Source of the DNA: Actinomycetes bacterium
Lineage (GTDB): Bacteria > Actinomycetota > Thermoleophilia > Solirubrobacterales > Solirubrobacteraceae
Direction of reading: 5' to 3'
Assembly (NCBI GenBank): GCA_023405705.1
Contig: JAEXXR010000052.1
Span: forward strand, 1 to 20,310
DNA: 20,310 bases
The position numbers were made by a program, and so were the translations under genes. Below the pieces are notes generated by a model. The model was not told the DNA's origin, made no database searches, and was given only the letters and a program-made list of their open reading frames with translations. Below are positions 1-19,780 of the stretch, piece after piece (within the stretch, counting starts at the first letter, position 1; every line of letters begins with the position of its first letter).

Positions 1-25
1 GCGCGCCGCTGTGCCGGCGGCGCGC
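1..25 (-). terminator. Hairpin downstream of mscL, probable terminator
   Basis: Bases 1-9 (GCGCGCCGC) and 17-25 (GCGGCGCGC) form a perfect 9-bp inverted repeat with a 7-nt loop, 12 bases past the mscL stop codon on the minus strand. The window ends here, so a following U-tract cannot be checked. Confidence 0.4.
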
Positions 26-4099: not shown

Positions 4100-5245
4100 C
4101 TAGAGCGCGGTGCGGATCGCCTGCAACAGGCGATCGACGTGCTGGGGCGCCTGGATCGACGCGCGCACGTGCTCCTCGTCGCCGACCGCCTCGCCGGACA
4201 TGACGATCACGTTGCCGTTGCGCAGGCGGGTCGTCAGCTCGCTCGCGGAGTGGCCGGGGGCGCGCAGCCACAGCACGTTCGCCTCCGACGGGGCGGCGTC
4301 GACCGGGAGGTCGTGGAGCGCGTCGAGCATGCGAGCTCGCTCGGTGAGGACGACGGCGCGGCGTGCCGCGATCTGCGCGTCGCAGCAGCGGACCGCCTCC
4401 AGCGCGCCGGCCTGGACCGGCGTGCCGACGCCGAGCTCGGGCGCCAGCTGCGCGACGAGCTGCTCGGAGCCCGGGCCCCCGAGCACGTAGCCGCAGCGCA
4501 TCCCGGCGAGGCCGTAGATCTTCGAGAAGGTGCGGAAGACGAGCAGACGCGGGTGGTCGTCGAGCAGCGCGAGCGAGGAGGCGGCGGCGCGCTCGTCGGC
4601 GACGTAGTCGATCAGCGCCTCGTCGAGCAGCAGCGAGACCTGGTCGGGCAGCGCGTCGAGCAGCTCGCGCAGGCGCTGCGGCGTCAGGTACGCGCCGGTC
4701 GGGTCGTTCGGGTTGCAGAGGACGATCGCGCGCGTGCGCTCGGTGACGGCGCCGAGCAGCCGCTCGACGTCATGGCCGTGGGGGACCGGGACGGCGCGGG
4801 CGCCGGCGCGCTGGGCCATCAGCGGGTAGAGGCCGTAGGAGGGCCACGGGATCAGCAGCTCGTCGTCGGCTCTCAGCAGCGCGCGGGTCGCGGAGGAGAG
4901 CAGCTGCGCGGAGCCGTTGCCGATCGCGATGCGGCCGGGCTCGATCCCGACGCGGCGGCCGATCTCGCGGCGCAGCTCCTCGGCGGTCGGGTCGGCGGCG
5001 GCGTTGAGCGAGCCGCGCACGGCGAAGGTGATCGCCGCGACGACGTCCGGGTGCGGCAGCTCGTGCCAGGTCGTGCTCGAGAGGTCGAGCGGGTCGACGC
5101 GCAGCAGCGCCTTGCGCCGCTCCTCGGCCGACTTCTCCTTCAGCTCCGCGGAGATCTCCTCGTCGGTCATCCCGGCGAACTGCTTGTAGTACCCGCGGAG
5201 CCCCATCCTGCGGCTAATGGTACGCCCCGTACGGTCGCCGAGCAT
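4100..5245 (-). CDS. PLP-dependent class I/II aminotransferase, histidinol-phosphate aminotransferase-like
   Basis: Fold-type I PLP enzyme closest in style to HisC (L-histidinol-phosphate + 2-oxoglutarate) or a related L-amino-acid aminotransferase. Visible landmarks are IAIGNGSAQLL (cofactor phosphate region), IPWPSYGLYPLMA, CNPNDPTGAYL (NP-x-x-PTG), LLLDEALIDY with the Asp that holds the PLP ring, the Schiff-base lysine in FSKIYGLAGMRCGYV, and a C-terminal ANVLWLRAPG. Length (381 aa) fits the family. Two starts are possible: ATG 5245, nine bases after the upstream gene's TAG, or ATG 5206 (MGLRGYYKQFAGM), which looks like the natural N-terminus. No other histidine-pathway genes are near, so the substrate is unproven. 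It is the last gene of a three-gene minus-strand run with the membrane protein and acyl-CoA synthetase. Confidence 0.88.
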   Translation of the reverse strand: MLGDRTGRTISRRMGLRGYYKQFAGMTDEEISAELKEKSAEERRKALLRVDPLDLSSTTWHELPHPDVVAAITFAVRGSLNAAADPTAEELRREIGRRVGIEPGRIAIGNGSAQLLSSATRALLRADDELLIPWPSYGLYPLMAQRAGARAVPVPHGHDVERLLGAVTERTRAIVLCNPNDPTGAYLTPQRLRELLDALPDQVSLLLDEALIDYVADERAAASSLALLDDHPRLLVFRTFSKIYGLAGMRCGYVLGGPGSEQLVAQLAPELGVGTPVQAGALEAVRCCDAQIAARRAVVLTERARMLDALHDLPVDAAPSEANVLWLRAPGHSASELTTRLRNGNVIVMSGEAVGDEEHVRASIQAPQHVDRLLQAIRTAL

Positions 5246-5762: not shown

Positions 5763-7605
5763 CTACTCCGCGTAGAGGGCATCGAATTCGGCCGCGTATT
5801 TCTGGTTGACGACGGCCCGCTTCACCTTCAGGGTCGGCGTCAGCTCCCCGGTCTCCTGCGAGAGGTCGTGGGGGAGGACGACGAACTTCTTCACCTGCTC
5901 GACCTGGGCGTACTTCGCGTTGGAGCGGTCGAGGTCGGCCTGGATCAGCTCGAGCACGCGCGGCTCGCGCGCGAGCCGCGGCGACGTCCTGCGGCAGGCC
6001 CTGCTGCTGGGCCCACGGCACGACCACCTCGGCGTCGAGCGTGATCAGCATGACCGGGTACGGGCGGCGGTCGCCGTGCATCACCGCCTGCGAGACCCAG
6101 CGCGACTGCTTCATGTCGTTCTCGCTGTTGGCCGGCGTCAGGTTCTTGCCGCCCGCGGTGATGATGATGTCCTTCTTGCGGCCGGTGATCGAGAGGAAGC
6201 CGTCCGCGTCGATCGAGCCGAGGTCGCCGGTGTGGAGCCAGCCGTCCTCGACCGCGCCGAAGGAGGCGTCGTCGCGCTTGTGATAGCCGGCGAAGACGTT
6301 GGCGCCCTTGATCAGCAGCTCGCCGTCCTCGGCGATTCTCAGCTCGACGCCCGGGAACGGCTTCCCGACCGTGCCGAGCTTGTGGCTCTCCAGCGACTGG
6401 AAGGTGGCGGCCGTCGAGGTCTCGGTCATCCCGTAGCCCTCGAAGACCGGCACGCCGCAGGCGAAGAAGAACTCGAGGATCTCCTTCGCGATCGGGGCGG
6501 CGCCGGTGACGGCCTGGCGGACGCGGCCGCCGAAGGCCGCGCGGACCTTCGAGTACAGCTCCTCGTCGGCTCTGTCGAAGGCCTGCTGCAGCTCGGGCGG
6601 GACGGGCTTGCCGGCGAGCTGCAGCTGGCGGACCCGGACGCCGAGCTGGGCGGCCTGGCGGATCTGCTCCGGCGGGTAGTTGCCGGTGACGAGCGTGTAG
6701 ATCTTCTCGAAGATCCGCGGGACCGACGGGAGGTTGGTCGGGTGGACCTCGTTCAGCTCGACGATGATCTGCAGCGGGTCGTTGGACCAGTACGCGAGCG
6801 CGGCGCCGACGTCGAAGGAGAGCAGCTGGATCAGCAGCGCGTAGGAGTGCGCCAGCGGCAGGTAGAGGTAGGTCAGCTCGTCCTCGACGATGCCGTTGCC
6901 GTGCTCGGCCATCGTCAGCATCGCGCGGTAGTTGCCGTGCGTCAGGACGCAGCCCTTCGGCGGGCCGGTCGTGCCCGAGGTGTAGATGAAGGTGAAGGGG
7001 TCTGCGGGGGAGACGGCCCCGATCCGCTGCTCCAGCTCGGATCGGTCTCCGCGCTGCGTCGCGCGGGCGCGGCCGCGGGCGCGCAGGTCGGCGAGGGAGA
7101 TCGCGTCGCCTCGGTGCTCCTGGTCGATCCCGTCCGGGTCGAAGACGATCACTTGGCGGAGGTGAGGCAGTCTCGCGTGGACCTCGCGCACCTTCGCCAG
7201 CTCGCCGGCGTTCTCGACGAAGACCGCGGTCGCGTCGGAGTCGCCGAGCACCCACTCGCACTCTTCGGGCGAGTTGGTCTGGTAGATCGGCACGACGACG
7301 GCGCCGGTCTGGGCGATGCCGAAGTCGGCGTAGGTCCACTCCGGGCGGGTGCGCGAGAGGATCGAGACGCGGTCGCCGGGCGCGATCCCGAGGTCGATCA
7401 GGCCGTAGGAGATCTCGTCCGCGATCGCGCCGACCTCGGCGTAGGTCGCGTCCTGCCACTCGCCGTCCCGCTTGACCTTGACGGCGACGCGGTCGGCGTA
7501 GCGGTCGGCCGCGAGCGACAGCAGGTCGGCGATCGTCTGCGAACCGGTCGACGCGTCGGACGCGCTCTGCGTGGCGGCGGCGCTGGTGCCGGCGCTGGCC
7601 TCCAT
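5763..7605 (-). CDS. Long-chain acyl-CoA synthetase (AMP-forming, FadD15-like), frameshifted near the 3' end
   Basis: Activates fatty acids with ATP and CoA through an acyl-adenylate. Motifs of the ANL superfamily are all present: P-loop YTSGTTGPPKG (residues 208-218), GYGMTETS, TGDLG, and GRKKDIIITAGGKNLTP. The start is ATG 7605 with AGGAGGAGG just upstream. The reading frame breaks at about 5976-5979. One extra G in a GC-rich palindromic run shifts the frame after QQGLPQDVAA. The expected family C-terminus (LAREPRVLELIQADLDR, then VVLPHDLSQETGELTPTLKVKR, ending FDALYAE) continues in the next frame to TAG at 5763. Without correction the ribosome would read a nonsense Arg/Ala tail to 5740. 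Either a sequencing error or a real mutation that removes the last ~70 residues, including the conserved C-terminal lysine region. Confidence 0.9.
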
Positions 7606-9374: not shown

Positions 9375-9541
9375 GCGGGGCTCGGGTGGGGTCCCGGGTA
9401 CGGCTGGGCGGTGGGCGCGGCCGGCATCTGCGAGACGGTACGCCGCGCCGGCGCCCGCCCGCGCCGCCTCGCGCCACGCATGGTCAGGACCGCGACGCCC
9501 ACATCAGCCCGGCTGTGGAATACTGACCGGGCACCGTTCAT

Positions 9542-9615
9542 CGGGGCGTGGCGCAGCCTGGTAGCGCGCACCGTTCGGGTCGGTGAGGTCCCGAGTTCAA
9601 ATCTCGGCGCCCCGA
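9542..9615 (+). tRNA. tRNA-Pro (anticodon CGG)
   Basis: A full cloverleaf can be drawn. Acceptor arms are CGGGGCG (9542-9548) and CGCCCCG (9608-9614) with discriminator A. The D-arm is GCGC...GCGC with AGCCTGGTA, the anticodon arm is CACCG-TTCGGGT-CGGTG (anticodon CGG, reads CCG), and the T-arm is CCGAG-TTCAAAT-CTCGG. C1-G72 is typical of bacterial tRNA-Pro. CCA is not encoded. AATACT at 9519-9524 may be its -10 box. It marks the boundary between housekeeping genes and accessory DNA and is a plausible integration site. Confidence 0.97.
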
Positions 9616-9620
9616 TTGCA

Positions 9621-9857: not shown

Positions 9858-9886
9858 TTGTCGCTGGATTCCGGTCCACCTACAGT
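9858..9886 (+). promoter_or_regulatory. Promoter of the RLLDD-GW operon
   Basis: TTGTCG (9858-9863), exactly 17 nt, then TACAGT (9881-9886): a good housekeeping promoter. Transcription would start near 9893, giving a leader of about 75 bases to the first ATG at 9968. Confidence 0.6.
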
Positions 9887-9900
9887 CGGCGGCGCTGTAG
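9880..9900. promoter_or_regulatory. Inverted repeat overlapping the operon -10 box and start site
   Basis: CTACAG, nine bases, CTGTAG is a perfect dyad that includes the -10 hexamer. Its position is ideal for autorepression by the XRE or ribbon-helix-helix protein encoded at the end of the same operon. The assignment of binder is inference. Confidence 0.5.
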
Positions 9901-9967
9901 TTCCACCCAATAAGCGGCCCGGCGGTGCTGTGACACCCCGGGCCCGGCACCGAAAGGAGCACTTTCG

Positions 9968-10444
9968 ATGCAAGACCATTGTTCCCGATCGCCGCGAGGC
10001 GATGGGCAGTTCCCGGCTGCGCAGATGCCGCACGGCCTGATCGTGTCGGGCGACATCCGCGATGCGATCCATCCCGAGCTGATGATCGCGCTGAGCGTCG
10101 TCGGCGACATCTGGATCTCGCAGGACCAGGGCGCGCACGTGGAGGCGGCCTCGCGGGCGCGCGAGCTGCGTGATGTTACGCGGCTGCTGGACGACTTCGG
10201 CTGGGATCCCGAGGGCGACGCGTCCGAGTACCAGATCACGCTCGGCGCGGCCGAGCTGACGCGGGTCGTCGGTCGTCTCCAGCTGCGGACGGCAGCCGCG
10301 CTGGAGGAGGAGATCCCCGAAGCGCGCGCGAGCGAGCTGCCGTGCCGAGACTCGCTGCGCGCGATCGCCGCCTACGGCGCGATCCTCCGGCTGCTGGGCG
10401 AGGCTACGAAGCCGGCCGTGCTCGGGCGCGGCGAGGGGGTGTAG
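9968..10444 (+). CDS. Single-copy RLLDD-GW domain protein, function unknown
   Basis: First gene of a five-gene operon. It starts at ATG 9968, preceded by AAAGGAG. The 158-aa product has a polar N-terminus (about 30 residues) and then one copy of a helical domain shared with the next two proteins. A first helix (MIALSVVGDIWISQ) is followed by ELRDVTRLLDDFGWD (signature at residues 72-79), an acidic linker, then YQITLGAAELTRVVGRLQLR. The same order (amphipathic helix, RLLDD-x-GW, F/Y-x-[IV]-T, L-x-R-x-L-x-x-L) recurs in all five copies. No signal peptide, membrane segment or known catalytic motif is seen. I cannot assign the family. Confidence 0.8.
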   Translation: MQDHCSRSPRGDGQFPAAQMPHGLIVSGDIRDAIHPELMIALSVVGDIWISQDQGAHVEAASRARELRDVTRLLDDFGWDPEGDASEYQITLGAAELTRVVGRLQLRTAAALEEEIPEARASELPCRDSLRAIAAYGAILRLLGEATKPAVLGRGEGV

Positions 10445-10447
10445 GCG

Positions 10448-11317
10448 ATGCCGCTGCCCAAGAGGAAGCCGGGCGCGCCGCTGCGTCTGGGCGTCGTCTC
10501 CCGCGACGCTCTGCGCGGCGCCGCGCTGGAGCTGCTCGCCATGCCGGGGTACGTGTCGGAGGTCGGCAACGTGCTGGACCACTTCGAGTCGGCCGGTCGG
10601 CGCGGGCTGGTGGAGGCCGTCTTCCGGTTGCTGGACGACCTCGGCTGGGGCGCTGACGACTGCGAGAGCGTGTTCGCGCTGACCCAGCCTGACGCCGAGC
10701 TTGCCAGAGCAGTGCTCGCGGTGCGGGGCAACACGAGGGCTTCGCTGGCGTTCGGGGTGCTGGCCGATGTCGCTGAAGCTCCGCGGCCCAGCGGCCGGCG
10801 TCAGCGGTTGGCCGAGCACGCGCTCGCGCTGTTCGCCCTGGGAGTCTGCGACGACGTGCTGGCGGCGCTGCCGCCATCGATAGCCGAGCAGCTCACGGGA
10901 GAACAGCCCGAGAGCATCGAGACGATCGCCGCCGACACGCGCGCAGCCGCGACGACGGCCCCGGCCGGGCGCATCTTGGCCGTGCCACATGGGGCGCGGA
11001 TAGAGCTGCGCGAGGCGGTGCTGCTCTGCCTCGAGCAGCCGATGACGGTGTTCGCGGACGCGGTCGCGGCGCCCGGCGCGCACGACGCCCGCCGCTTGCG
11101 AGCGCAGGTGGTGGCGGGGTGGCGGCTGCTGGACGACCTCGGCTGGAACCAGCAGGACCCGCGCCACGAGTTCCGCATCACGATGCCCGTCGAGCAGCTT
11201 GCCTTGGCGCTGCTGTGGCTGCACGAGGCGCCCGGCCAGCCCGTGACGGCGGCCCGACGGCTGCTGGAGCTGTTGGCGCCCGAGGTCGTGGAAGGAGCGG
11301 CGTCATGGACTCCGTGA
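10448..11317 (+). CDS. Two-copy RLLDD-GW domain protein, function unknown
   Basis: Second operon gene, starting three bases after the previous stop with GAGGGGG upstream. The 289-aa product carries two copies of the repeat. Copy one has RLLDDLGWGADD at residue 60 followed by VFALTQPDAELARAVL. Copy two has WRLLDDLGWNQQDPRHEF at residue 226 followed by RITMPVEQLALALLWLHE. The copies are separated by an Ala-rich middle (about 130-205). Copy one is the most diverged of the five. Soluble, helical, no known enzyme motif. It overlaps the next gene by 13 bases, indicating translational coupling. Confidence 0.8.
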   Translation: MPLPKRKPGAPLRLGVVSRDALRGAALELLAMPGYVSEVGNVLDHFESAGRRGLVEAVFRLLDDLGWGADDCESVFALTQPDAELARAVLAVRGNTRASLAFGVLADVAEAPRPSGRRQRLAEHALALFALGVCDDVLAALPPSIAEQLTGEQPESIETIAADTRAAATTAPAGRILAVPHGARIELREAVLLCLEQPMTVFADAVAAPGAHDARRLRAQVVAGWRLLDDLGWNQQDPRHEFRITMPVEQLALALLWLHEAPGQPVTAARRLLELLAPEVVEGAASWTP

Positions 11318-12135
11318 CCATCCGACGGGCCGAGCGCGACGCGCTGTATTGGCTCTGCTGGCTGAAGATGGCCGCGATCGGCGAGATCTTCACTGCGTTC
11401 GCGGCCGGCGACGTCGACGAGGCGCGGGGCTTGCGGCACGTCTACCGCGACGTGACGCGGCTGCTGGACGACATCGGCTGGAAGGAGCAGCAGGACGGCG
11501 ACGCGTTCGCGGTCACGATGGAGCTCGATGCGCTGCTGCGCGCGCTCTTGCAGCTGCACGAGCGCGGGATCGCGCTCGTCTCCGCCCACGCGCACGGCGT
11601 CGGCGACGGACCCGAGGAGCTCCAGAAAGCCGTGGACGGCGTCACAGCCTGCGACGCGCTCATGATCCGACTTGCCCAACCGGTCAGCAGCGACGACCTC
11701 GCCGCGGACGAGCCGGAGGCGGCGAACGTCGCGATCACGGTCCGGCGCAACGAGCGCCGGGCGCTCTGGCACCTCTGCTACCAGCGGATGGCGGCGATCG
11801 GCGACATCTTCGACGCCTTCGACCGCGACGACGCCAGCGAGGCGCTGACGCTGCGCAACCGTTACCGCGACCTGATGCGGCTGCTGGACGACATCGGCTG
11901 GAGAGAGGAACAGCCCGCCGAGCAGTTCGCGATCACGATGGAGCCCGACCGGCTCGTGCGCGTGCTGCTGCGCTTGCACGAGACCGCCGTCGAGCAGATC
12001 GCCGACCACGTCGACGGCCTCGCCGACCAGCCGCAGAGGCTCCAGACGGCCGCCGTCGGCGCAGCGGCCTGCGGCACGCTCCTGACGCAGCTCGCCTACA
12101 TGCACGGGACGCCCTCAGGGGAGGCGTCGTCATGA
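11305..12135 (+). CDS. Tandem-duplicated RLLDD-GW domain protein, function unknown
   Basis: Third operon gene. ATG 11305 was chosen because GGAAGGAG sits just upstream and the first repeat begins at residue 9. The 276-aa product is essentially two copies of one ~140-residue domain. Signatures are TRLLDDIGWKEQQ at residue 52 and MRLLDDIGWREEQ at residue 192, exactly 140 residues (420 bases) apart. Each is preceded by R-x-(E)R-x-ALxxLCxxxMAAIG(E/D)IF and followed by FA(V/I)TME and L-x-R-x-L-x-x-LHE. The two halves are much more alike than the copies in the other genes, so the duplication is recent. It overlaps the XRE gene by four bases (ATGA). Confidence 0.82.
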   Translation: MDSVTIRRAERDALYWLCWLKMAAIGEIFTAFAAGDVDEARGLRHVYRDVTRLLDDIGWKEQQDGDAFAVTMELDALLRALLQLHERGIALVSAHAHGVGDGPEELQKAVDGVTACDALMIRLAQPVSSDDLAADEPEAANVAITVRRNERRALWHLCYQRMAAIGDIFDAFDRDDASEALTLRNRYRDLMRLLDDIGWREEQPAEQFAITMEPDRLVRVLLRLHETAVEQIADHVDGLADQPQRLQTAAVGAAACGTLLTQLAYMHGTPSGEASS

Positions 12136-12446
12136 CCGCGGAGGAGCAGGGGACTTGGACCAGGCCGGCGCAGTCGGTCGATCACGACTACCTCGGCCGC
12201 GCGATCCGCGAGCTGCGCGCCCGGCGCGCGCTCTCGCAGGAGAAGCTCGGCTTTGCCTCCGGGCTGCATCGCAACTACATCGGCGCGATCGAGCGCGGCG
12301 AGATCAACCCGACCTTCAGGGTGCTGCTCAGAGTCAGCGACGGGCTGCGGCTTCCGCTCTCGGAGATCTTCGCCCTCTTCGAACAGCGGCGCGAGGACGA
12401 CCCGCCGCCCACACGCCGCCGTCGCCGGCGACGGCTCGGGCCGTGA
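12132..12446 (+). CDS. XRE-family helix-turn-helix transcriptional regulator
   Basis: The 104-aa DNA-binding protein has a Cro/CI-type five-helix domain at about residues 20-80: YLGRAIRELRARRALSQEKL, then GFASGLHRNYIGAIERGEIN, PTFRVLLRVSDGLRLPLSEI. SQEKLGFASGLHRNYIGAIERG is the helix-turn-helix itself and matches the family closely. A basic Arg-rich tail follows. ATG overlaps the upstream TGA (ATGA), and its own stop overlaps the next GTG (GTGA). As a small regulator inside the operon it is the obvious candidate to bind the dyad over the operon promoter (9880-9900). Confidence 0.92.
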   Translation: MTAEEQGTWTRPAQSVDHDYLGRAIRELRARRALSQEKLGFASGLHRNYIGAIERGEINPTFRVLLRVSDGLRLPLSEIFALFEQRREDDPPPTRRRRRRRLGP

Positions 12447-12688
12447 AGACCACCACCGTCCGGTTCGACACCGAGACCTGGGACGACATCGTCCGCCAGT
12501 CCGACGCGCTGGGGATCTCGCACGCGGAGTTCATCCGCGGCGCGGTCCACCGGCGCCTCGGGCGCCTCGCCGACGCCCAGCGGCTTTCCTCTCTCGAGCG
12601 TCAAGCCGCGCTGCTGAACACGCGACTCGAGAGTGTCTCGAGTCTCGTTCAGCGGCTCGCGGTCGTCGCACAGCACGTGCGGCGGTAG
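12443..12688 (+). CDS. Ribbon-helix-helix (CopG/Arc-type) DNA-binding protein
   Basis: The 81-aa product begins with a beta strand TTTVRFDTETWDDI, followed by helix VRQSDALGISHAEFIRGAVHRRL, the ribbon-helix-helix arrangement of Arc/MetJ/CopG repressors. The helical C-terminal half (LSSLERQAALLNTRLESVSS) could be a short coiled coil. The GTG start overlaps the XRE stop (GTGA), so translation is coupled. Such proteins often serve as antitoxins or plasmid copy-number/partition regulators. No toxin-like partner follows, since the next gene has its own upstream region. Confidence 0.82.
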   Translation: MKTTTVRFDTETWDDIVRQSDALGISHAEFIRGAVHRRLGRLADAQRLSSLERQAALLNTRLESVSSLVQRLAVVAQHVRR

Positions 12689-12768: not shown

Positions 12769-14157
12769 ATGGCTGCGGTCGTTCCAGAAGGATACGTCGA
12801 TGCGTTTCCGGAGAAGCGCTTCTTCGTGGGCATGCTGACCCGAGACATCGAGCTGGCGCCCGCGATCATCGATCTGGTCGACAACTGCGTTGACGGTGCC
12901 AAACGAATTCGGCCGGACGAAGAGGACGAGCGACGGTTCGAGGGACTGTGGGTCCGGATCACGATCAACCCAGAGACCTTCGAGATCGAAGACTCCTGCG
13001 GTGGGTTCAGTCGCGATCACGCGGCCCGATACGCGTTCAAGTTCGGTCGCCCCAGAAGTCAGCCAGGTAGCCACGGCGAGGTAGGACAGTTCGGCATCGG
13101 CATGAAGCGGGCGATCTTCAAGATGGGTCGTGCCTTTGAGGTCTTGTCAGCGACTTCCGAAGGCGATCGGTGGCGAGTGCAACTCGACGTCGATGATTGG
13201 TTGGAGGACCAAGACCCGTCGTCGTGGGTGTTCCCACTTGAAGACGCCGACGACGCGGCACCGGACCATCCGGGGACCGTTGTCCGCTGTTCGAAGTTGC
13301 TGCCGGCGGCGCGCTCACGCTTCAGACAGGACGGGTTCCTCTCGCGCGTGCTGCATGAGATCTCGATGCGTCACGCGATCGCGCTGCAGGACGGCCTGAG
13401 AATCGAGGTCAACGGCAGACCGCTCCATCCCCGCCCTCCTTTCCTGCTCGCTGCGGCAGGACTGGAGCCGATCTCATATTCGGAGACCTTGGAGGACACC
13501 GACGGCCAACGCGTCGAGATGAGGTTGTACGCCGGGCTGGCTGCGGGTGAGGAAGACGAAGAGGCGGACACCGATGATCCGAGCCTGTGGACCGGGCTCG
13601 ATGCTGCCGGCTGGTACGTGTTCTGCAACGATCGTGCACTCCTCTTCGCCGATCGCGGCCGGCTGTCTGGATGGGGAGAGGACGTTCCTCGGTTTCATCC
13701 GCAGTACCGACGCTTCCGCGGGTACGTCTACCTTTCAGGCGATAGCTCAGCGATGCCGTGGAATACGGCGAAGACCGATGTCGACGAAGACAGCGAGATC
13801 TGGGCTCAGACTCGGCGTCGGATCGTTGACGCGCTGCGGAAATCCATCACCGTGATGAACCGCATCAAACGAGAGGTTCAGCAGCGGCCGCCCGAAGACC
13901 GTCCGCTCGTCGCGGCCATCAACGCGGCCAAGCCGGCGTCTTTGGAGAACCTGGCCCCACGCAGAACCTTCGTCGTGCCTGACGTGCCGCCTAAGGTCAC
14001 ATCCGACTACGTCCGAGTCGCCTACTCGCTCCCCGCCGACGTGTTTGCGAGAGCGAGTGACGCGCTTGAGACGAGTCGTCCGTCCGAGGTGGGCCAACGG
14101 ACGTTTGCTTACTGGATGCGACGTGAAGTCGACAAGAGGTTCGACTTTGACGGTTGA
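12769..14157 (+). CDS. GHKL-fold ATPase (MORC/Hsp90/MutL-like) of a restriction-modification-type locus
   Basis: The 462-aa product has the Bergerat ATP-binding fold. The N-box is DLVDNCVDGA (residues 35-44, catalytic-site Asn39). Motif G1 is IEDSCGGFS (Asp75, with D-x-x-G-G in place of the usual D-x-G-x-G). The G2 lid is GQFGIGMKRA (106-115). The remaining half probably contains the S5-like domain found in MORC and MutL relatives. Length and context fit the prokaryotic 'paraMORC' ATPases that accompany DNA methylases and Vsr-like nucleases. In those systems the ATPase is thought to remodel or clamp DNA. The next gene overlaps its end by 11 bases; dcm and vsr genes follow. Base composition is visibly less GC-rich than the upstream operon, suggesting separate acquisition. 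Confidence 0.85.
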   Translation: MAAVVPEGYVDAFPEKRFFVGMLTRDIELAPAIIDLVDNCVDGAKRIRPDEEDERRFEGLWVRITINPETFEIEDSCGGFSRDHAARYAFKFGRPRSQPGSHGEVGQFGIGMKRAIFKMGRAFEVLSATSEGDRWRVQLDVDDWLEDQDPSSWVFPLEDADDAAPDHPGTVVRCSKLLPAARSRFRQDGFLSRVLHEISMRHAIALQDGLRIEVNGRPLHPRPPFLLAAAGLEPISYSETLEDTDGQRVEMRLYAGLAAGEEDEEADTDDPSLWTGLDAAGWYVFCNDRALLFADRGRLSGWGEDVPRFHPQYRRFRGYVYLSGDSSAMPWNTAKTDVDEDSEIWAQTRRRIVDALRKSITVMNRIKREVQQRPPEDRPLVAAINAAKPASLENLAPRRTFVVPDVPPKVTSDYVRVAYSLPADVFARASDALETSRPSEVGQRTFAYWMRREVDKRFDFDG

Positions 14158-15064
14158 CGACTTCGAGGTGCGGCTCCCGGAGGCGCCCTACGCATTCCGA
14201 CCTGCGAAGCGGATTCAGCGGATGATGTTCTGCGATGCGCTTCGGGCGCTTCGCGCAGTCCGCGCCATGGATGAGTATCAATACGTCGGGCTCGGGCACT
14301 GGCAGTTCGTGGACTTTGAACTGATGCGACGCGAAGTCGGGATTCGACGCATGGTCAGCATCGAGAAAAACACCATGCTGAAGGCCCGCTTCGAGGAGAA
14401 CCTCCCATTTCAGGAGATCGAGCTGTTGTTCGGCTCGACTGCCGAGCGGTTGCAGGACATTGACGTCGATCAGCCGACCATCGCGTGGTTGGACTACACA
14501 GCAAAGCTCACGACCAGAGAGTTGCAAGACCTGGCATTCCTGGCCGACCAACTGCCACTCGGTAGCGTGGTCGCTGCCACGTTCAACTGCCGGCCGGATC
14601 GAGAAGACCGCCGCCTTGAGACATTGTCGACCCAGATTGGCGAGGTCCCGGGCGATATCGCAGAAGATGACCTGGATGCTGACGGCCTCCCTCGCGTCCA
14701 GCGGCGAGTGTTGGTCGAGAGGCTGAATCGAGTCGCCGATGCTCGTGGCGACGGCGCCCGGATCGAGCAGTTCATGTTCATCAGGTACGCGGACGGCGCG
14801 CCGATGGTGTTCTGGGCCGGTCTCATCGCGGATGACGACATCGCGGCCGCGACACTGCCTGCGCTTCGACGGCACGAGCAGTTCAGAGATGGCGACGACT
14901 ATCTCGATGTGACAGTGCCCTTCCTGTCAACGCGCGAGGTCATCTTGCTGAACAAGGAGATTCGCGAGGGCGCGGGCCCCCGGCTTGCCGGAGTAGACAA
15001 AACCGACGCCGAGGCGTACGGTCGCCTCCATCGCTGGTACCCGGTTCCGCCCCTTCCGTTCTAG
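14147..15064 (+). CDS. Rossmann-fold methyltransferase-like protein associated with the ATPase
   Basis: The 305-aa product starts most likely at TTG 14147, because AAGAGG is seven bases upstream and this gives an 11-base overlap with the ATPase gene; GTG 14168 is an alternative. Near the N-terminus is AYAFRPAKRIQRMMFCDAL, then YVGLGHWQFVDFELMRREVG (residues 46-65), a glycine loop like methyltransferase motif I. SIEKN (71-75) follows, where an acidic residue would bind the ribose of SAM. TIAWLDYTAKLT occupies the motif-IV position, followed by LPLGSVVAATFNC. This order of elements is typical of O-methyltransferase-like Rossmann proteins, but no exact family is recognised and activity is unproven. 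Coupled translation with the ATPase implies a joint function. Confidence 0.75.
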   Translation: MTVDDFEVRLPEAPYAFRPAKRIQRMMFCDALRALRAVRAMDEYQYVGLGHWQFVDFELMRREVGIRRMVSIEKNTMLKARFEENLPFQEIELLFGSTAERLQDIDVDQPTIAWLDYTAKLTTRELQDLAFLADQLPLGSVVAATFNCRPDREDRRLETLSTQIGEVPGDIAEDDLDADGLPRVQRRVLVERLNRVADARGDGARIEQFMFIRYADGAPMVFWAGLIADDDIAAATLPALRRHEQFRDGDDYLDVTVPFLSTREVILLNKEIREGAGPRLAGVDKTDAEAYGRLHRWYPVPPLPF

Positions 15065-15167
15065 TAGGGTCCAGTTGCGGCTCGCTTCCGTCGACGGTCG
15101 GCGCCACAATGGTGCGCTGTGCTCGTCATCGCTTGCCATCCGCATCGTCGCCTGCCTGCCGTGATAC

Positions 15168-16517
15168 GTGTCTAGGCCCGTCGCCGTCGATCTCTTCGCG
15201 GGGGTCGGCGGCATGTCTCTCGGATTCGAGCAAGCGGGTTTCGATGTCGTGTGCGCGGTCGAATCGGACGCCGCACACGCAGGCGCGCATCGGTTCAACT
15301 TTCCGCTCTGCGAGGTCGTGCAGGAGGATGCTCGCTCCATTACGGCCGAAAGACTGCGCGCCGCCGTCGTCTCAGGCTTGCAACGACACGGGCGGCCTTG
15401 CGGTACACCGGTCGACGTGGTGTTTGGGGGCCCCCCGTGCCAGGGGTTCTCTGTCGGCGGCCGTCTCGATCCTGAGGACCCTCGGAACCGGCTCGTCGCC
15501 GAATTTGCCCGTCTGGTCGCCGCGCTTGAGCCGAACGCGTGGGTGATCGAGAACGTGCCTGCGATGGCTTCGCGGTCCCTGCCGGGGGACGAGATGCTGC
15601 CAGTCATCGACTGGCTGGAAGTCAAGACCAAGCAACTCGGCTACACCATCGCGGGCAACGGCGTGTTGAACGCCAACCGGTTTGGCGTCCCCCAAGATCG
15701 ACGGCGGCTTCTCGTGGTCGGCGTCCGAGACAAGGCCGCGTTCCGACTCCCCGAGCACGAGACTGCTGGTCTCTCCCGTCTTCCGAGTTCAAATCCGAGG
15801 CTCGGGGGATACGGGCACCCACAAACCCCTGCCGATATGCCCCGGTGCCCGACCGTGGCAGAAGCGATTGACGACCTCCCGGATCTCGATCGTTTCGAGC
15901 AGCTTCTGCGTGAGGACGCGGTGGCGCTCTGTGCGGACGAGAACGACGAGCGGTGGCGCTGCGCTTCGCCTTACGCGCGTCGGCTCGCTGGGCTCGATCG
16001 TGAAGACGGCAACTATGCGTGGCTGCGCAAGAGCGACATGTCGGTCCTCACTGCGTCGATGCGCACAGCCCACAGCGACGCGGTCATCGAGCGTTTCGCC
16101 GCGACGGCCCCGGGAGACCGCGAAGCCGTCAGTCGGTTCCTCCGCCTGCATCCGGACGGGGTAGCTCCGACGCTGCGAGCGGGAACCGCGCCCGATCGTG
16201 GTAGTTACAGTGCACCACGGCCTATTCACCATCGGTTCGATCGAGTCATTTCGGTCCGTGAAGCTGCGCGACTTCACGGGTATCCGGACTGGTTTCGACC
16301 AAGCGCGGCGAAATGGCACGGCTTTCGGCAGGTCGGAAATTCTGTGCCGCCGCCTCTCGCCAAGGCTGTCGCTGTCGAAGTCCGCCGGGCGCTCGCGCGC
16401 GAGCCCGAATACTCCGAAAGAACCCTCCGGCTTGGGCCGGTCGAGTTGCTGAGGGTGGCTGCGGGCGGCGGGCGTGCGGCGGCGAAGCGCAAGATGCTGG
16501 CTGCCGCCGCCGCTTGA
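15168..16517 (+). CDS. DNA (cytosine-5)-methyltransferase
   Basis: Transfers a methyl group from SAM to C5 of cytosine in a specific DNA sequence. The 449-aa product shows the ordered motifs of the family: I (DLFAGVGGMSLGFEQAG, from residue 8), IV with catalytic Cys91 (FGGPPCQGFS), VI (ENV at 128-130), VIII (QDRRR, 176-180), a variable target-recognition region (about 200-350), IX (ISVREAARLHGYPDWF) and X (QVGNSVPPPLA, 388-398). All key residues are intact. The start is GTG 15168, without a strong ribosome binding site; 103 bases separate it from the upstream gene. The vsr gene follows 43 bases downstream. The recognition sequence cannot be predicted from the sequence alone. Confidence 0.96.
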   Translation: MSRPVAVDLFAGVGGMSLGFEQAGFDVVCAVESDAAHAGAHRFNFPLCEVVQEDARSITAERLRAAVVSGLQRHGRPCGTPVDVVFGGPPCQGFSVGGRLDPEDPRNRLVAEFARLVAALEPNAWVIENVPAMASRSLPGDEMLPVIDWLEVKTKQLGYTIAGNGVLNANRFGVPQDRRRLLVVGVRDKAAFRLPEHETAGLSRLPSSNPRLGGYGHPQTPADMPRCPTVAEAIDDLPDLDRFEQLLREDAVALCADENDERWRCASPYARRLAGLDREDGNYAWLRKSDMSVLTASMRTAHSDAVIERFAATAPGDREAVSRFLRLHPDGVAPTLRAGTAPDRGSYSAPRPIHHRFDRVISVREAARLHGYPDWFRPSAAKWHGFRQVGNSVPPPLAKAVAVEVRRALAREPEYSERTLRLGPVELLRVAAGGGRAAAKRKMLAAAAA

Positions 16518-16560
16518 CTGCACATCCGGTCGAGGGCGGGCGGGCATACCTGCGTGTGTG

Positions 16561-17001
16561 ATGCGCCATACCGACGTTCCGTCAGTCCCGCCGGCCCCGC
16601 CGGCCTCGTCGGCCACAGCACGCAAAGTGATGCTCGGTAACCGTTCTGAGAGCGAGGTTGAGCGTCGATTGCGGGCCGCGCTTCACCGACGCGGCCTGCG
16701 GTTCCGGAAGCACTGGAGCCCACTTCCGAGAGTGCGCTGCCGTCCAGACATCATCTTTCGCCGACAGCGCGTCGCAGTGTTCGTGGATGGGTGCTTTTGG
16801 CATCGATGCCCGGTTCACGGCTCAAGTCCTAGAGCGAACTCGGAGTGGTGGAGAATCAAGCTGGACGCCAACGTTGCGCGTGACCGTCGCAACGATGCAG
16901 CACTTGCAGCAGCTGGTTGGACGGTCGTGCGGCTCTGGACGCACCAGGACCTCGACGACATGATCGAGACGGTAGTAGCGGCCGTCGAACAAGCCGCGTA
17001 G
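16561..17001 (+). CDS. vsr: Very short patch repair (Vsr)-type DNA mismatch endonuclease
   Basis: Vsr nicks DNA 5' of T in T:G mismatches that arise when 5-methylcytosine deaminates at sites of a partner C5-methyltransferase. In ATPase-linked loci a Vsr-like protein may instead be the restriction nuclease. The 146-aa product has the usual length. GNRSESEVERRLRAALHRRG occupies the first helix. RCRPDIIF carries the catalytic Asp (residue 63), FVDGCFWHRCPVHG the metal/active-site His region, and then come WWRIKL and NVARDRRNDAALAAAGW. The start is ATG 16561, with GTG 16558 possible. The cytosine methyltransferase immediately upstream strongly supports the assignment. Confidence 0.94.
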   Translation: MRHTDVPSVPPAPPASSATARKVMLGNRSESEVERRLRAALHRRGLRFRKHWSPLPRVRCRPDIIFRRQRVAVFVDGCFWHRCPVHGSSPRANSEWWRIKLDANVARDRRNDAALAAAGWTVVRLWTHQDLDDMIETVVAAVEQAA

Positions 17002-18599: not shown

Positions 18600-19469
18600 G
18601 TGAAGGCTTCGATTCATCGAGGCGTTCCGCGTGAGCTTGCGCGGAATGCAGGTCGCGCGACGCTGTGGGCCGCTGTGGGCCTGGTGCTCGTGCGCGGCGT
18701 CGGCGACATCCTCGCCGACGATCCGCAGCCGGCCGCGCACCCGGCGCCCGTCCGCACGAGCGCGGCGCAGTTCCCCGACGGTGAGGCGCGGGCGTTCGCG
18801 ATCGCGTTCGCCCGCACCTACCTCACCGTCGACCCGAGCGACGAGCGCGGCGCGCGGCGCCTGGCGCCGTTTGTCTCTTCGAGTTTGAGCGACCAGGTGG
18901 CACCTTCGGTGTCGCCGCGCAGCCCAGGGGCTGAGGTCGCTTTCGCGACGGTGGCGCGGGAAGTTCACCTGGGCGAGTCCCGCGCGCTCATCACCGTCGC
19001 AGTCTTTCTGCGCAACGGGGGCGACCGGTACCTGACGGTGCCGGTCGCCCGCGATGAGGCGGCCGGGTTGGTCGTCTACGACCTGCCCGCTCTCAGCGCA
19101 GCGCCTGCCGCCGGGGCTGGAGATCCCCCGGCGGTGTCCGAACTGTCAGGTCCCGACGGTGCGGCCGTCGAGGACTTGGCAGCACGCTTCCTGCGCGTCT
19201 ACCTCCACGGCGGCAGCCGGGCCGAGTTGGCCTATCTGCTCGCTCCGGGCGTGCACGTGGCGCCGATGGGGAGGGGCCTGGTCGTCGAGGCGATCGAGGA
19301 GGTCGCTCGCCTCGGCGCCCTCCACCCGACCCGGCTTCAGGTCGCCGTCACCGCACGTGTGCGCGAGAGCGCGACGCGGGCGAGGTACCGGCTGCGCTAC
19401 CGCCTCGCCGTCGAACGGTCCGACGACCGTTGGCAGGTCACTTCGGTAGCCGGAGGGCCGGCGTCATGA
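18600..19469 (+). CDS. Conjugative transfer protein, TcpC-like
   Basis: TcpC-type proteins are VirB8-like components of Gram-positive conjugation machines, anchored by one N-terminal transmembrane helix with two NTF2-like domains outside. The 289-aa product fits. A basic N-terminus is followed by one hydrophobic helix (about residues 18-38, ATLWAAVGLVLVRGVGDIL). A first domain with EARAFAIAFARTYLTVDPSD comes next, and after a Pro/Ala linker a second with DLAARFLRVYLHGGSRAELAYLL and the closing strands RARYRLRYRLAVERSDDRWQ. The start is GTG 18600 with GGAGG upstream. It overlaps the next gene by four bases (ATGA). Assignment rests on architecture and neighbours, not on a strict motif. Confidence 0.82.
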   Translation: MKASIHRGVPRELARNAGRATLWAAVGLVLVRGVGDILADDPQPAAHPAPVRTSAAQFPDGEARAFAIAFARTYLTVDPSDERGARRLAPFVSSSLSDQVAPSVSPRSPGAEVAFATVAREVHLGESRALITVAVFLRNGGDRYLTVPVARDEAAGLVVYDLPALSAAPAAGAGDPPAVSELSGPDGAAVEDLAARFLRVYLHGGSRAELAYLLAPGVHVAPMGRGLVVEAIEEVARLGALHPTRLQVAVTARVRESATRARYRLRYRLAVERSDDRWQVTSVAGGPAS

Positions 19470-19780
19470 GCGCGGCGCGAAGGGCCTCGATCGCGCTCGT
19501 CGCGCTGTTGGCGATTGGCGGGCTGCTGCTCGCTGCCCCGGATGCGTTGGCGCAGTCGGGCAATGACGTGGGGCGCAACATCGGCGATCTGCTGCGGCAG
19601 TACGCGGCGCAGATCTACGGCGGGATCGTCGCGATCGTCGGCCTCGTCTTCCTGCTCAACCGCCGCTACAGCGAGCTGGCGCTGTTCCTGCTCGCGGCGG
19701 TGGTCGTCGCGTGGCTGGTGTTCAGCCCCGACCAGATCGCCAACGCGGCGCGCGCGATCGGTCGGCGGGTGCTCGGATGA
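19466..19780 (+). CDS. Small membrane protein of the conjugation operon, VirB2/TrbC-like
   Basis: The 104-aa product has a signal-like N-terminus (RRASIALVALLAIGGLLLAA with a likely cut after ALA in APDALA-QSG), a short polar stretch and two further hydrophobic helices. These are AAQIYGGIVAIVGLVFLL and ELALFLLAAVVVAWLVFS, separated by a basic NRRYS loop. This layout is that of VirB2/TrbC pilin-like proteins and of small membrane partners found between tcpC-like and tcpE-like genes in actinobacterial conjugative elements. Both ends overlap neighbours by four bases (ATGA), so it is translated from the same message. Confidence 0.75.
   Translation: MSAARRASIALVALLAIGGLLLAAPDALAQSGNDVGRNIGDLLRQYAAQIYGGIVAIVGLVFLLNRRYSELALFLLAAVVVAWLVFSPDQIANAARAIGRRVLG

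Follow-up and report, generated by a model that had tools for sequence, protein, structure and literature searches.

In a 20,310-nucleotide stretch of DNA from an actinomycete of the family Solirubrobacteraceae (contig JAEXXR010000052.1; the whole stretch is called the window here), we found a structured leader RNA of two hairpins, P1 and P2, at the head of an operon in which three genes (A, B and C) encode copies of a domain with the signature RLLDD(F/L/I)GW, named FAM here, and are followed by genes for an XRE and a ribbon-helix-helix-like (RHH) regulator (Table 1). The start codon of gene A lies inside this RNA, which the first-pass annotation of the same DNA had overlooked. A block upstream of the first FAM gene was common to most of the 27 loci that we read; its structure is conserved and covaries, and it sits just upstream of open reading frames in a fixed orientation. 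By these sequence features it is a cis-regulatory leader RNA, whose regulatory role is putative. The explanation we prefer, with slightly less than even confidence, is that the leader may act as a post-transcriptional gate at the tRNA-proximal control module of an integrative element, with FAM proteins as regulator partners.

A covariance model built from 16 sequences (R1; short calibration, rough E-values) matched 27 of 31 sources, including the 16 seeds. In its general form, P1 has a stem of 7-8 base pairs, a single bulged base, a second stem of 4 base pairs and mostly a C[GU]NNAA loop, while P2 consists of GCA/UGC, a mismatch and a varying stem. When a longer piece of the window was folded as a single sequence, the inner stem of P2 was drawn and the GCA/TGC pairing was not. 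The pairing was then assessed in 41 matches from 40 loci outside the seed alignment, where 92.0% of the cells were paired, compared to 81.7% (standard deviation 0.6) after shuffling, 74 cells were changed on both sides, compared to 21.7 (standard deviation 4.4), and the covariation score was 0.297, compared to 0.128; none of 500 shuffles reached any of these values. Both sides had changed in 11 of the 17 pairs (6.9 in shuffles), and sliding the partner by one column reduced pairing to 41-50%. Because this alignment had been fitted to the model, we also used rigid, gap-free offsets, and the three helices of 40 non-seed sequences paired at 0.843, 0.731 and 0.747, each above the maximum of 1000 shuffles. 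With the same offsets, 24-26 sequences from FAM loci gave 0.802 for the lower part of P1 (shuffle maximum 0.797) and 0.760 for the upper part (0.731). Folding without an alignment recovered P1 and P2 in 40 of 40 sequences by a loose count, with P2 drawn otherwise by eye in L124 and L130, and the folding z-score was below -2 in 34 of the 40.

The leader reaches well beyond the FAM genes. It was present in 63 of 299 genomes of the class (R1, E <= 0.01), in 44 of 396 genomes of the phylum, 10 of which are also in the class count, and in 1 of 140 genomes of a high-GC comparison phylum, that one being the Polyangiaceae metagenome-assembled genome (MAG) that served as a seed; from the organism names, we take these groups to be Thermoleophilia, Actinomycetota and Myxococcota, respectively. 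FAM was the rarer of the two in the class, in 10 of 299 genomes (E <= 1e-4). One genome assembled as a single contig of 6,359,369 bases (G005) has ten copies of the leader. Pattern searches of IMG/VR returned 4, 12 and 5 contigs, and R1 matched 18 of these 21 (20 matches, E <= 0.05). The viral contig L190 carries three matches before different genes, at 472-516, 4500-4567 and 6254-6323 (E 5.1e-6, 6.6e-4 and 8.2e-4). By reading, the leader is followed by FAM in contig L177 and stands at the start of HNH-type genes in L182, L173 and L174.

Among 40 FAM-less contexts sampled from the class genome matches, 37 had a co-directional next gene. The P2 AUG is itself the start of this gene in 9 of them, and in 19 the start falls at +63 to +117. 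This first gene matched Phage_integrase in 12 of the 37, HTH_3 in 7 and single-stranded-DNA-binding protein (SSB) in 3; among 37 second or third genes, 6 matched Phage_integrase and 2 matched Resolvase/Recombinase. Within 3 kb downstream of 91 leaders we counted an integrase or serine recombinase at 32, XRE at 25, RHH at 15 (searched with three RHH queries, of which L116 is an RHH by reading) and FAM at 27. An AUG is present within P2 in 67 of the 91, in frame with the next gene in 23, and the A of this AUG often faces a C as a mismatch. In about 14 of the 24 leaders without the AUG, a G able to pair occupies that site, by reading, and this trade of A for G at the mismatch suggests selection for an AUG within the hairpin. 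A promoter of the form TT...-16..19-TA...T was found upstream of 30 of the 91 leaders, compared to 3.3% of shuffles, so the RNA there would lie near the 5′ end of the transcript.

Some arrangements of the leader recur or are unusual. At five places in two genomes (L111, L118, L122, L156 and L159; G164 and G068), a leader and an SSB gene are followed by the same three kinds of gene, a repeated element. In L151 and L154 (G005 and G006) a leader and an XRE reading frame precede a methyltransferase-like gene at what seems to be the same site. Two leader matches on opposite strands of L109 (3342-3412 and 4960-5026) face each other across an integrase gene.

The operon itself is largely as first annotated. 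Its five genes and its five signatures (beginning at nucleotides 10181, 10625, 11123, 11458 and 11878) are in place, as is the 420-base spacing within gene C, and the genes are closely packed, with coding overlaps of a few bases at B/C, C/XRE and XRE/RHH and a gap of 3 nt between A and B. The XRE assignment was confirmed by Pfam, and the RHH one is tentative, being based on a weak resemblance to Arc/NikA and on recurrence of the gene in relatives. A single promoter with a dyad on its -10 box had been proposed; both can be read in the window, and the dyad, by reading, is not kept in the related loci L001 and L032. A stricter consensus promoter scan found none. Near-identity of the DNA of the five domain copies held only within the signature of about 26 nt. 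Within gene C, DNA identity between the two copies is 66% at the 420-nt offset without gaps and 78.5% over 372 positions when gaps are free, and their protein identity is 47%. Compared as protein with the first copy, the other four reach 21-26% identity; RLLDD and GW, an R and an A that precede them, and a T, an L and an A further on are invariant across all five. The gene C pair had been taken for a recent tandem duplication. Two metagenomic homologues of 276 aa (P0131 and P0132) already retain both copies, each 67-91% identical to its counterpart, whereas the two copies are 42-50% identical to each other, so the duplication is not recent.

Of three FAM loci found by a genome scan, Conexibacter sp. 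CPCC 206217 has two and the Polyangiaceae MAG has the third; the first Conexibacter locus has the window's left-flank genes and tRNA-Pro, then three FAM genes and an XRE gene. Across a set of 30 FAM loci (some only fragments; L040 and L070 were dropped), the leader precedes FAM at 27, with 1-3 FAM genes and up to five domains per locus. XRE lies downstream at 16 of the 30, XRE together with RHH at 10, and 6 loci have an integrase or serine recombinase no more than 5 kb away. Leader, XRE and RHH also occur without FAM in L103 and L137, and in L116 and L123 if the second gene there is RHH, as we read it. The first-pass idea of a mobile module with these regulators is therefore upheld in part, by the XRE and RHH counts and by relatives that lie beside whole or partial tRNA 3′ ends, and the idea of the operon as a complete unit is not supported, since 14 of the 30 loci have no XRE downstream and the regulators follow the leader without FAM elsewhere. 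An extra protein is encoded after RHH at L030 4110-4676 and L031 6070-6810, and between XRE and RHH at L002 9903-10331; one copy is weakly RHH_5-like, and it may be a second regulator.

FAM is a large family that has no Pfam entry. A profile of the five window copies matched 10 proteins, one of them the window's own; P0010 as the next query matched 452 proteins at E <= 0.01, and a 128-row profile at least 525 at E <= 0.001 among 7,996 candidates scored. Where source names were shown among the best 120 of each search, they read hypothetical protein, with some Solirubrobacterales. No Pfam family matched repeatedly among the 128 members scanned, which gave one match each to TetR_C_9, DUF6301 and DUF2582 at E 0.003-0.007. 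DUF6301 (PF19818) has a weak local likeness to the second copy of gene C and was rejected as an identity, with 16.5 bits against a gathering threshold of 27.2 and only 1 of 128 members at E <= 0.01. For the domain, AlphaFold2 confidently predicted a bundle of helices and two short strands (mean pLDDT 92.3), and comparison of this predicted fold with solved structures gave no close match. The conserved residues look structural, and no catalytic set is evident. L002 encodes a fusion of two FAM domains with the DNA-binding domain Trans_reg_C (E 3.2e-21). FAM proteins are acidic, with a median isoelectric point (pI) of 4.81 (n = 20), whereas the 136 other genes at the same 11 loci gave 6.15 and 11% of those genes are as low; the two regulators are basic (pI 10.65 for XRE and 11.24 for RHH).

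Several relatives lie in what look like integrative elements. A whole tRNA gene on the same strand was found within 700 nt upstream of 14 of the 91 leaders (10 of 27 with FAM and 4 of 64 without), at 172-294 nt in 13 of the 14 and at 618 nt in L032. Assuming about 48 tRNA genes in 3-6 Mb, we estimate that chance would give such proximity in less than 1% of cases. Partial tRNA 3′ ends of 20-40 nt lie upstream of the leader in four loci (Table 1) and look like att sites; such repeats were also sought at L034, L035, L038 and L044, and none was found. With a tRNA 3′-end repeat at the island boundary, these relatives are, from their sequences, putatively tRNA-targeted integrative elements. One relative is a 12.1-kb stretch of G006 with tRNA-Phe, leader, FAM, XRE, RHH, a DprA-like gene, Replic_Relax, an Xis-like helix-turn-helix (HTH) gene, integrase and an ATPase (Replic_Relax and integrase by Pfam, the Xis-like HTH and the ATPase by reading), which ends in an exact 20-nt repeat of tRNA-Phe; a second leader and FAM lie behind the repeat. 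It resembles actinomycete integrative elements with Replic_Relax, Xis and Int, whereas in the window those three were not found and only the conjugation protein TcpC was. The tRNA-Ala island of G005 holds two cassettes, and at its far end, 24.6 kb from the tRNA gene, the last 40 nt of the tRNA are repeated with 1 mismatch. This region (L031, L175 and L176; G005:C1:719000-746000), with its two leader-FAM-XRE-RHH cassettes, looks like a build-up of elements at one att site.

Starting from the anatomy, covariation, position and recurrence of the leader, and from the att-type setting of some relatives, we infer gating by the leader, P1 as a handle and FAM as a partner. The operon would be the tRNA-proximal control module of an integrative element, transcribed from the promoter at 9858-9886, and the 5′ end of its transcript would fold as P1 and P2. 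With a Shine-Dalgarno (SD)-like stretch in the 5′ side and loop of P2, and usually an AUG in its 3′ side, the first frame would stay closed until the leader opens, and the genes further down would be expressed through translational coupling. The likely recognition handle is P1, whose bulge is kept and whose loop is of the C[GU]NNAA type. The genes under this gate would often be the ones that control whether the element remains in place or moves, namely integrase in some elements, XRE/RHH repressors in others and, here, FAM-XRE-RHH. FAM would be an acidic helical partner domain that binds and tunes basic DNA-binding regulators, a role suggested by the one Trans_reg_C fusion, the operon order and the charge. 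A wider version of this explanation, which we regard as possible but doubtful, is that phages and integrative elements of Actinomycetota that are unrelated to one another have P1-P2 in common as a cis-acting RNA, sometimes with copies at several operons of one element, which would give their genes expression control separate from the host's; FAM would then be a dedicated protein arm of this RNA in Conexibacter and related bacteria, enlarged through repeated duplication of the domain.

A number of results weigh against the proposed gate. Further pair types in the non-seed set were at an ordinary level (17 compared to 15.9 in shuffles, with 150 of 500 as high), and P2 of the FAM-locus sequences paired at 0.722 with rigid offsets, below the best of 1000 shuffles (0.727). 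P2 has no AUG in 24 of the 91 leaders, and in 42 its AUG opens another frame, often short and ending beside the next start. An SD-like core is as common without the AUG (22 of 24) as with it (56 of 67), compared to 34% in shuffles; the function therefore cannot consist of masking SD and AUG alone. In a local search, 30 of the 91 leaders had no integrase, serine recombinase, XRE, RHH or FAM within 3 kb. In the window itself, no integrase was found among the genes scanned and no second copy of the tRNA 3′ end in the 20,310 bases; the island may run beyond the window, and the TcpC gene suggests that it may be an integrative conjugative element continuing past the window's end.

With the evidence on AUG and SD mixed in this way, we hold translational gating to be the most likely function and antitermination its main rival. 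Here the nascent two-hairpin RNA would act in cis on RNA polymerase as a processive antiterminator, so that mobile-element operons are read through. Such an activity would suit two hairpins close behind a promoter, where one is seen (30 of 91), a leader placed before unrelated operons and three times in the viral contig L190, and the 24 leaders not tied to an AUG, and it has precedents at the start of mobile-element operons, as far as the portion of the source consulted describes them, in put of HK022, which is RNA alone, and conAn of pLS20, which pairs RNA with protein (PMC8955417). Our leader differs from both in that it also precedes short genes and often contains an AUG, and antitermination by it is putative. 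It would leave the AUG in P2 of 67 of the 91 leaders unexplained, and many leaders are followed by short genes, or by an integrase with hardly anything after it; we consider this alternative rather improbable. That the element acts as DNA, as inverted-repeat operators for XRE/RHH or as recombinase arm sites, seems unlikely to us. Inverted repeats covary too, and XRE or RHH genes are often downstream; the one-sided bulge and kept loop type of P1, the two unequal hairpins, the fixed orientation with preferred distances to the next start codon, the location 3′ of the -10 box wherever such a box is visible and the occurrence before genes without XRE/RHH all speak for RNA.

The FAM proteins themselves could be read otherwise. 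Acidic proteins encoded by the first genes of a module, in 1-3 genes with up to five domains per locus, could be DNA mimics that counter restriction or other defences, expressed early and with XRE/RHH as repressors. The fusion to a DNA-binding domain in L002 argues against this, the best PADLOC match of genes A-C had an E-value of 0.017, and a restriction-type cluster was noticed beside FAM in the window only, a comparison that did not extend to a search at every locus; nothing tested favors anti-defence over regulation, and we judge it, too, to be improbable. XRE and RHH proteins are common antitoxins and the cassette sits in mobile elements, as an addiction (toxin-antitoxin) module would, yet several FAM copies per operon, the lack of any toxin family match for FAM in Pfam, NCBIfam or PADLOC and the absence of an evident catalytic set make this very unlikely. 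A guide or bridge RNA for a recombinase is scarcely credible: tyrosine or serine recombinases do lie within 3 kb downstream in 32 of the 91 cases, but identity or complementarity of the leader to the tRNA 3′ half was not above the shuffled maximum in any of the 8 loci tested, and the leader also precedes genes other than recombinases.

Table 1. Features of the window around the leader RNA, and tRNA 3′-end repeats at related loci
Feature	Positions	Strand	Remarks
tRNA-Pro (cgg)	9541-9616	+	L001 and L032 share this tRNA and the left-hand genes
sigma70-like promoter, TTGTCG-17-TACAGT	9858-9886	+	ends 23 nt before the leader RNA match
CTACAG/CTGTAG dyad	9880-9900	+	over the -10 box, from sequence
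Leader RNA	9910-9976	+	about 67 nt, two hairpins; match to model R1, 79.4 bits; one of 16 seeds
Hairpin P1	9916-9944	+	GGCCCGG-(bulged C)-GGTG-CTGTGA-CACC-CCGGGCC; from fold and relatives
Hairpin P2	9947-9971	+	GCA-(C.A mismatch)-CGAAAG-loop-CTTTCG-ATGC; SD-like AAGGAG and ATG of gene A inside
Gene A	9968-10444	+	158 aa, one FAM domain; start at 9968 (inside leader RNA) or 10025
Third hairpin, ATCGCC-GCGA-GGCGAT	9988-10003	+	different but paired sequences in several Conexibacter-type relatives (by reading)
Gene B	10448-11317	+	289 aa, two FAM domains
Gene C	11305-12135	+	276 aa, two FAM domains 420 nt apart
XRE regulator	12132-12446	+	Pfam HTH_3, E 2.4e-12
RHH-like regulator	12443-12688	+	GTG start; weak Arc/NikA-like resemblance and recurrence in relatives
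HATPase_c_3 protein	12769-14157	+	weakly MzaB-like
Methyltransf_35 protein	14147-15064	+	
C5-cytosine methylase	15168-16517	+	
Vsr	16474-17001	+	
Conjugation protein TcpC	18675-19469	+	E 3.7e-15
tRNA 3′-end repeat, L036			20 nt, exact
tRNA 3′-end repeat, L042			40 nt, 1 mismatch
tRNA 3′-end repeat, L043			40 nt, 2 mismatches
tRNA 3′-end repeat, L062			40 nt, 5 mismatches, compared with the tRNA of a related locus

On the left flank of the operon, the NIF3-like neighbor is 77% identical in both L001 and L032. To its right, the four genes in a row at 12769-17001 resemble a cluster for restriction or defence that includes an ATPase of the HSP90 type. The HATPase_c_3 protein scored 24.5 bits against MzaB, where the cut-off is 850, which places it outside the MZA defence system, and this ATPase had no PADLOC match. 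A small membrane-type protein is encoded after TcpC, the two together covering 18675-19780.

A search with cmscan against 4,227 Rfam families (E <= 1 and 0.5) gave no match over the window leader, and at 20 further leader loci only tRNAs and weak unrelated matches beside the tRNA were found. The int-alpA RNA motif is linked to integrase genes; the leader had no Rfam match, though the presence of an int-alpA model in the library was unconfirmed. In the portion of the source consulted, STAXI is described as a structured RNA near genes for single-stranded-DNA-binding, integrase and antirestriction proteins, with a pseudoknot repeated two or three times and a role that is only suggested (Weinberg et al. 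2010, PMC2864571). Of the described RNAs consulted, it comes closest. The gene company is similar, but STAXI has tandem pseudoknots and the leader has one P1 and one P2 hairpin. We rejected an identity with STAXI because the leader is a single two-hairpin unit and had no Rfam match, though the library's STAXI entry was likewise unconfirmed. Lacto-int, listed for Lactobacillales and phages in a table of the same source (PMC2864571), is alike in its integrase link by name; the leader had no Rfam match.

In conclusion, an RNA motif of mobile elements is a known kind of finding, and structured RNAs before integrase and DNA-handling genes had previously been listed as motifs, while this leader RNA, the FAM family and the cassette are undescribed as far as our searches reach. 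With its covariation, its AUG hairpin, ten copies in one genome and natural variants with and without the AUG, the leader has a function that is directly testable. It also offers a handle for finding integrative elements with unannotated genes, and it gives a setting to FAM, a large orphan protein family.

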